From assembly GCA_030834965.1 (NCBI GenBank), contig JAUQWW010000021.1, positions 1 through 64,000 of the forward strand: DNA of 64,000 nucleotides. Reading direction: 5' to 3'. The stretch comes from Gallionellaceae bacterium. GTDB taxonomy: Bacteria > Pseudomonadota > Gammaproteobacteria > Burkholderiales > Gallionellaceae. Positions 37,797-39,856 of the stretch are shown in pieces. A program made the position numbers and the translations under genes. The notes under the pieces were generated by a model that worked only from the letters and a program-made list of their open reading frames with translations, was not told the origin of the DNA and did not search any database. Within the stretch, counting starts at the first letter, position 1. Each line of letters opens with the position of its first letter.

Positions 37797-38789
37797 TCAG
37801 CTTCGTTCCCAGACCAGCCGGTCCTTGCGGCGTACAAGCGCCGTACCCAGTTCACTGCAAAGTTTGATCATGCGCATGCAGATGGCCTCGAATTCCTCCC
37901 CACGTGCAAGATCGACGCGGGCGAATGACAACGTCAGTGGGACTAGTTCGATGCGCTGCAGGCAATTCCCCCCAAAGCTGATCCTGTACAGGCACGAGCG
38001 GTCATTGCGCAACACAGGATCGACAGCGTAGTCATCTATAAGGTTACCGGTGTCATAGAGTATGGGCTTGCCCCGATGAAGCTCAATACCCTGGCAGATA
38101 TGCGCGCTGTGGCCGTAGTAGATATCCGCTCCGAGTTCGATCACGCGTTTTGCAAAATCGCGGAAGCGATGTGAAGGGCGCTGGATGAAGTTGCCTCCCC
38201 AGTGGTTGGAGAACACCACCAGGTCGGCGCCCATGGCGCGCGCCTCTCCGATGGCGGTCGAAACACGCGCAAGTGAAGTCTGGTCGAGCGATGCTTCCAT
38301 GAAATTGGTGCCCGGACGGGCGGATTGGGCGGCGAAATCCGGTTCGTTATCGGTGAAGGCTATCAGCGCCACACGATATGTATTTATCCCTTGCACTTCA
38401 ACCAATGTTGGCTGTGCCGCTTCGCTGGCATTGGCGCCGGCTCCGGCATAACTGATACCGGCTGCCTTCAGTGTGTGCAAGGTGTCGATCAGGCCGCGCT
38501 CGCCGTAGTCTAAAGTATGGTTGTTGGCCAACGAACAGGCATCGATGCGTGCAGCCTGCAATGCCTTTACCGCAGACGGATCGGCGCGGAAGTGGAACAT
38601 CTTCCGGGTGCGCGTCCATTGATGCGTATGCGTGGTGAGTGCGCATTCCAGATTGGCGATGCGCAAATCTGCCTGTACCAGGTGCGGCAATACACCCCCC
38701 CACAATTCAGCCGGCCGCATTGCCACAAGCGCCTCGTTGACGCCGCGGCCGAGCATGACATCTCCCATCAACGCAAGGGTCAGCACCAC
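37797..38789 (-). CDS. CapA-family metallophosphatase-like protein
   Basis: A GTG start with AAAGGA upstream gives 330 residues. The motifs GDVMLGR, NLECALT, ANNH, SNHWG and GHSAH are the metal and phosphate ligands of the CapA/PgsA branch of calcineurin-like phosphoesterases. In Bacillus, CapA takes part in poly-gamma-glutamate synthesis, but lone CapA homologues in proteobacteria have no confirmed role. The gene lies 21 bp downstream of the MITE. Confidence 0.9.
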   Translation of the reverse strand: MVLTLALMGDVMLGRGVNEALVAMRPAELWGGVLPHLVQADLRIANLECALTTHTHQWTRTRKMFHFRADPSAVKALQAARIDACSLANNHTLDYGERGLIDTLHTLKAAGISYAGAGANASEAAQPTLVEVQGINTYRVALIAFTDNEPDFAAQSARPGTNFMEASLDQTSLARVSTAIGEARAMGADLVVFSNHWGGNFIQRPSHRFRDFAKRVIELGADIYYGHSAHICQGIELHRGKPILYDTGNLIDDYAVDPVLRNDRSCLYRISFGGNCLQRIELVPLTLSFARVDLARGEEFEAICMRMIKLCSELGTALVRRKDRLVWERS

Positions 38790-38810
38790 GAATTCCTTTC
38801 TAACCGTCCG

Positions 38811-38975
38811 CTAGTGTCGCGAATCGGAAATAACGGAACAAATGAAACGGATGGATTTTTTTGCCAGGCAAGGCGCAGACCCTTGCCGTATGGGGTATAC
38901 GGCAAGGGGTTGCAACGCCGCATGGCGAAAAAAGACGCCGTTTCATGTTTTGTTATTTCCGATTCGCGACACTAG
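38811..38975. mobile_element. 165-bp palindromic MITE
   Basis: The element begins CTAGTGTCGCGAATCGG and ends with the exact inverse; the terminal 24 bp are perfectly complementary. It folds into a nearly complete hairpin, with inner arms CCCTTGCCGTAT and ATACGGCAAGGG around GGGGT. The terminal CTAG provides the stop codon of the SDR gene. It has no coding capacity and the ends look like a target-duplication or CTAG-preferring insertion. No relative was found elsewhere in the window. Confidence 0.8.
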
Positions 38976-39856
38976 GCCAGATACTGCGGGGCAATATCTT
39001 CCAGGCGTGCGGGCGTAATACCAAATGGAAAAGCGCAATGGCACACATTGTCCTGCTGCATGGAATGGAAATTGTCGCGCGTCATCAACTTGACCGGCAA
39101 CCTCTCCATTACGCTGGCCTGGAGATAGGCCACGGCATCGGGCAACGGCACAATCAACGGATGCCGACCAAGGCAAGCTGCGGCGAACCTGACCAGTTCG
39201 CGCAGACGATACACCTGCGGCCCGCACAGGCCATAGCGCTGGCCGATGCTGGCCGCATCGTTCAAGCTGCGTACATAAGCCTGCGCCACATCTTCCACCC
39301 ACACCGGCTGGAACTTTGCATCGGCACACGCAAGTGGCAGCACCGGCACCCATCTTGCCAGTCTGGCAAACAAGGTCAGAAAACTGTCGCCCCTGCCGAA
39401 AATGACCGACGGGCGGAATACGGTGGTTTGCAGGCCGCTGGCCTGTACCGCCATCTCTGCCTCGCCTTTGGAACGCAGATAGGCACTCGGCCCGGCCGGT
39501 GCGGCATTCAGCGCACTCATGTGCAGCAATCGTTTTACGCCGACGACCCCTGCCGCCTCAATCACCTTGTGCGACAACTCGACATGCACGCGCTGAAACG
39601 TCTGCCCACCGTGCTCATGCAAAATGCCCACCAGATTGATGACCGCATCCACTCCCTCAAAGACTCTGGCGAGTTGTGCCGCATCATGCACATCGGCCGG
39701 CACAATTTCCACCGGCAAGGAGGTCAATGCCTGACGCGCCTTATCGGCACTGCGTGTTGGTGTGCGCACCGCCACTCCTTGCGCGCATAGCAAACGGGCA
39801 ATGTGGCGACCGACAAAACCTGTACCTCCCAAAACACAAACCGATTGGATATGCAT
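38972..39856 (-). CDS. NAD(P)-binding SDR (NDUFA9-like atypical SDR)
   Basis: The 294-residue protein has the Rossmann loop GGTGFVGRH (10-18), DAVINLVGILHEHG and a central VFRPSVIFGRGD region. This resembles complex I NDUFA9-like subunits and atypical SDRs, usually sugar or quinone-related and of unclear role in bacteria. Its TAG stop is formed by the terminal CTAG of the MITE, so the C-terminus may have been altered by insertion. Confidence 0.88.
   Translation of the reverse strand: MHIQSVCVLGGTGFVGRHIARLLCAQGVAVRTPTRSADKARQALTSLPVEIVPADVHDAAQLARVFEGVDAVINLVGILHEHGGQTFQRVHVELSHKVIEAAGVVGVKRLLHMSALNAAPAGPSAYLRSKGEAEMAVQASGLQTTVFRPSVIFGRGDSFLTLFARLARWVPVLPLACADAKFQPVWVEDVAQAYVRSLNDAASIGQRYGLCGPQVYRLRELVRFAAACLGRHPLIVPLPDAVAYLQASVMERLPVKLMTRDNFHSMQQDNVCHCAFPFGITPARLEDIAPQYLA

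Follow-up and report, generated by a model that had tools for sequence, protein, structure and literature searches.

An IS630-type MITE in the stop codon of an SDR gene of a Gallionellaceae bacterium and the end classes of its family

The repeat unit of pneumococcus (RUP), a short non-coding repeat of 107 bp from Streptococcus with IS630-like terminal repeats and a TA-containing target, was proposed to be mobilised by IS630-Spn1 and is described with one end type (PMC2229807). That source also presents the Yersinia palindromic sequence (YAPL/RU-2) and the Rickettsia palindromic elements as repeats of 105-168 bp, the model for the latter being a long stem-loop that has terminal inverted repeats; in the passages concerned, no IS630 ends are given for either of them, and the YAPL termini have no TA motif (PMC2229807). 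Also short is MITEPsy1 of Pseudomonas syringae (100 bp), which duplicates CTAG or YTAA and whose ends and partner are of the IS5 type (PMC3189936). IS630 and ISY100, of the Tc1/mariner type, insert at TA, IS630-type enzymes with a 2-bp duplication (PMC2170065).

The element described here lies in a window of 64,000 nucleotides, i.e., positions 1 to 64,000 of contig JAUQWW010000021.1 from a Gallionellaceae bacterium (assembly GCA_030834965.1). While it resembles RUP in the features given above, it is set apart by its length, 165 bp, and by its description, namely palindromic throughout with a core that occurs with three end classes. With IS630 and ISY100, it shares terminal repeats and TA in CTAG as target, NF033545 transposases being encoded in relatives, whereas it encodes no transposase itself and the IS630 elements examined (L188 not counted) lack its core. 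It is a non-autonomous MITE of the IS630 type, and its presence in the window is an ordinary insertion in a native stop codon, the wider family being of more interest than the insertion itself.

Structure and dispersal of the element

The element, an IS630-type MITE of class A, occupies positions 38811-38975, flanking CTAGs included. Its inverted ends are identical over the outer 24 bp (CTAGTGTCGCGAATCGGAAATAAC), i.e., (i) the left terminal inverted repeat at 38811-38834 on the plus strand, and (ii) the right terminal inverted repeat at 38952-38975 on the minus strand, both similar to IS630 ends; the arms differ at several places further inside, and the ends are perfect over these outer 24 bp only. 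Folded end to end, the near-palindrome reaches -109.7 kcal/mol, where shuffles average -44.9 (z = -16), and the 24-bp end occurs twice in the window and never in shuffles, with up to three mismatches allowed. Short and non-coding, it has neither a transposase nor a long ORF of its own, as expected of a MITE. The coordinates, the identical ends and the fold bear out the palindrome first described by a sequence-only reading, which had also taken it for a MITE and called for a search for other copies.

Such copies exist. The own genome holds three, 95-96% identical to each other, and the search for the 24-bp end in this genome and its relatives, as that reading had advised, found it in exact form in 45 further stretches of named genomes, mostly MAGs of Gallionellaceae and Nitrosomonadales. 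Matches are present in 16 of the 199 genomes searched, own genome counted. A Gallionellaceae relative (G040) carries about 63 ends, corresponding to about 32 copies, many at contig breaks, and the core is also present in other families of the same order. The sites seen for the copies in different genomes are unrelated to each other, which is the dispersed multicopy pattern of a MITE. Nothing useful came from plasmids, phages and viral contigs when these were searched for the whole element, the ends or the core.

Among the G040 copies in L118, L125, L137, L145, L149 and L150, several interrupt another repeat at its CTAG, a REP-like one with a variable hairpin and of the form ACTTGCC...hairpin...GGCTTAGTnnnnTGG, for which L149 provides an empty site, i.e., a single CTAG in a repeat matching that of L118. 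Some stretches depart from the standard form. One class A copy (L059:1501-1721, G033:C71) has grown to about 223 bp with an internal insertion that is itself hairpin-like, L048 is a deletion derivative of 45 bp, and an element of 122 bp whose ends are of another type, CTAGTGTGCTGTCCC, is found at L088:2346-2467 (G219:C24), on a contig that also bears a solo class A-like end. Class A ends that stand alone, with no second end, occur at L038:11556-11579, where a 332-aa gene stops in the CTAG, and at L087:2955, L088:205, L090:3852, L092:2783 and L089:3269. The solo ends in G069, G089, G219, G072, G033 and G004 were considered as possible autonomous elements, but the stretches scanned contained no second end to match them.

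Target sites, stop codons and neighbouring genes

On one side of the element, positions 38972-39856 on the minus strand encode an SDR-superfamily NAD(P)-binding protein of 294 aa (Pfam Epimerase/NAD_binding_10), the TAG stop of which, at 38972-38974, lies within the terminal CTAG at 38972-38975. From this position, it had been proposed that the element supplied the stop and may have shortened the protein. The TAG does lie where stated, but it was there beforehand. In three element-free relatives (G004, G109 and G010), SDR orthologs 82-83% identical to that of the window end in ...APQYLA or APQYLS followed by TAG, at the same residue (those of G021 and G013 are longer by 4-6 residues), and the stop is therefore older than the insertion. 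Since CTAG is the insertion target and already held TAG, the TAG belongs to the target, and any frame ending in a CTAG present before the insertion already ended there. The CTAG at 38972-38975 is as such target sequence and not new information, whereas the second one, at 38811-38814, is the duplicate of that target, whether of TA or of the whole CTAG, as judged from the flanks of copies. The insertion shortened nothing and left the SDR protein unchanged.

On the other side, and in the same orientation, lies a CapA/PGA_cap gene (PF09587) at 37797-38789 on the minus strand. The gap of 21 bp given earlier between the element and capA holds for the start at 38789 in the ORF list, but relatives start at the codon matching 38786, making this start, and a gap of 24 bp, more likely. 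Outside the element, the AAAGGAA motif at 38793-38799 on the minus strand is probably the ribosome-binding site native to capA. It had been further suggested that the insertion separated or polarised the two genes. However, the capA orthologs of ten relatives (65-70% identical) are not beside SDR, nor do SDR orthologs stand beside capA, and only two distant paralogs are close together, in G017; the insertion split no conserved SDR-capA pair. Regarding polarity, capA keeps its likely own ribosome-binding site, no promoter was found, no T-run terminator stands at the base of the element's hairpin, and the only terminator-like site is weak, inside the element and within chance; an effect on capA expression or polarity is possible but unsupported. 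The co-orientation of the two genes with the element between them, together with the TAG in its terminal CTAG, fits an element that created the stop, shortened the SDR protein and split an SDR-capA operon, but this is refuted for the stop codon by the element-free relatives and opposed for the operon by the separate orthologs, which leaves the explanation extremely improbable.

Occupation of a stop codon is not particular to the SDR gene. The second copy of the own genome, L005:2628-2793 (G000:C31:59627-59792), sits exactly within the clpB stop codon (...GGVMRFEKG-TAG). In relatives, ClpB ends at that point or at most two residues from it, with various stops and in most cases with FEKG, and the site is CTAG in three of them (L277, L287 and L288), so that the SDR and clpB stops of relatives both represent empty sites of a MITE. 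Over all copies collected, 19 of 106 outward ends coincide with a stop that closes an ORF of 100 aa or more (ORFs rather than annotated genes being counted), whereas for the other CTAG sites of the same loci, used as controls, the figure is 47 of 681 (Fisher p = 5e-4), i.e., landing on a stop is about 2.6 times more common than at other CTAG sites (18% vs 7%). CTAG reads TAG on either strand, so that an insertion may coincide with a gene's own C|TAG stop, and such insertions are over-represented, probably because they are tolerated, the protein remaining intact and the insertion surviving.

Relationship with IS630 elements

The same family and order contain intact IS630 elements, about 1.17 kb long and with ends CTAGTGTAGTG..., that encode NF033545 transposases (281 bits). 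When ends were compared position by position over the 26 positions outside CTAG, without counting CTAG itself, the class A end of the window agreed with that of the IS630 in L248 at 19 positions, the class B end (CTAGTGTAGTGTCTCGCAAATGGCTTGACA) with L162 at 22 and the class C end (CTAGTAGTCCGTTCCACCAAAACGGTGACA) with L200 at 20, the best match of each class being reached by none of 20,000 shuffles over 21 ends; the right arm of the window copy alone matched at 17 of 26, a value reached by 6 of 20,000 shuffles. An IS with the very same ends, which the sequence-only reading had recommended looking for, did not emerge: the nearest end is the one at 19 of 26, in all 45 stretches with the exact end, this end sits on a MITE or a deletion derivative or else stands alone, and a PF13358 search of the genomes with copies found IS630 copies with other ends. 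The own genome has only decayed IS630 copies with class C-type ends, namely two transposase copies with class C-type right ends at L240/L247 (G000:C5:26220-28260). As class A ends were found on none of the intact IS630 elements, the direct transposase partner is placed at the level of the family. In several IS630 elements (L182:1582-2667, L189, L190, L194 and L210), the TAG stop of the transposase gene is completed by the CTAG at the right end of the element and hence depends on the target.

Tenzen and Ohtsubo are said to have found in 1991 that IS630 prefers TA in CTAG. Both ends are present in 42 copies of classes A and B (class C rows being left out as their pattern is too loose and yields chance pairs); of these, 25 are flanked by CTAG/CTAG and six by CTAG/CTAA. 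The third copy of the own genome (C50) has CTAA as its right flank. CTAG is itself palindromic. The CTAG/CTAA flanks fit a TA duplication, while one copy flanked by ATAT/ATAT and one by CTGG/CTGG fit a 4-bp better than a 2-bp duplication. The latter two would suit a MITE of another CTAG-targeting DDE family with a 4-bp duplication, i.e., of IS5/IS427, IS701 or IS481 type, all the more as CTAG is duplicated by other MITEs, e.g., the IS5-like MITEPsy1 (PMC3189936). Such an origin is nonetheless unlikely, with the ends of all three classes matching IS630 ends position by position, six copies fitting a TA duplication, and no IS5/IS427, IS701 or IS481 element with such ends seen, short of a systematic search. 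IS481 targets CTAG; as a source, it was dropped once the ends had matched IS630.

The best explanation, with a probability of about 0.88, is that an IS630-family transposase acted in trans on a non-autonomous MITE, which thereby came to lie in the stop codon that the SDR gene already had. The transposase, of the Tc1/mariner-type DDE kind, would recognise the terminal repeats of about 27-30 bp and, moving the MITE by cut and paste, would insert it at CTAG with duplication of TA (or CTAG), which in the window would have taken place in the SDR stop, upstream of capA.

A common core and its ends

The core common to the three end classes corresponds to positions 38839-38948 (plus strand). For 46 of the 47 aligned copies (L054, read in the wrong orientation, being left out), ends and core are respectively 87% and 89% identical within class A, and 84% and 93% within class C. 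Between classes A and C, the ends are 37% and the core 88% identical, and between class A and the Gallionellaceae copies of class B, 51% and 86%. Unusually, three kinds of unrelated ends, each resembling a different IS630 lineage, occur on a single, nearly constant core. Because copies were gathered by sequence patterns, other end classes may exist and proportions are no census. The arms match at 85-87% within each copy, and the arm-by-arm classification gave matching classes in 46 of 50 copies. One clean chimera was found in G013:C2 (L134, minus strand, from 3454 of the reverse complement; also L091), with a left half of class B and a right half of class A joined in the shared core and CTAG at both ends.

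A core so conserved between classes with unrelated ends, together with changes on both sides in 39 of 61 predicted pairs (L054, with its wrong orientation, still counted), could also point to a structured regulatory RNA or DNA element under selection, i.e., a terminator, an attenuator or a protein-binding palindrome, with mobility secondary. This is very unlikely: the search with the element returned no Rfam match, the hairpin base and the promoter search speak against it as mentioned above, as do the unrelated sites in different genomes, and terminal repeats and template switching would likewise make the arms pair.

Template switching further bears on the age of the insertion, which the perfect ends had been taken to indicate as recent. 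Arms are identical over positions 5-27 in only 2 of 46 aligned copies. The window copy has GAATC in both arms, where two sister copies have GAACC, and its apex at 38880-38887 (plus strand) reads CCCTTGCC instead of the CCCGCAGCC of most copies, the left side now equalling the right (GGCAAGGG); owing to this change, the element is 165 and not 166 bp long. The apex looks like a templated quasipalindrome correction and, taken with GAATC, like a template-switch correction between arms, a process known for quasipalindromes (PMC7202029, PMC8604942). Because arm copying can keep ends perfect without movement, perfect ends do not date an insertion and are weak evidence of recent movement, the more so with own copies differing by 4-5%.

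The same process may account for the end classes. Tentatively, and at somewhat less than even odds, the palindromic core would switch ends and so ride different IS630 lineages. Recombination within the common core would first provide one arm with new ends, in the manner of the A/B chimera of G013, after which hairpin-mediated template switching would copy the new end onto the other arm, giving matched ends and a new class. The alternative to such an exchange of ends is strong selection on the core while the ends diverge.

As a general rule, an element targeting CTAG will often occupy existing TAG stops with the protein unharmed, and coincidences between stop codons and transposons therefore need an empty-site check; this corrects the tempting reading of a transposon supplying a stop codon. 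With a shared core and three IS630 end classes, the switching of non-autonomous elements between transposases becomes testable, as does the question whether a palindromic build assists it through the copying of an end to the opposite side.
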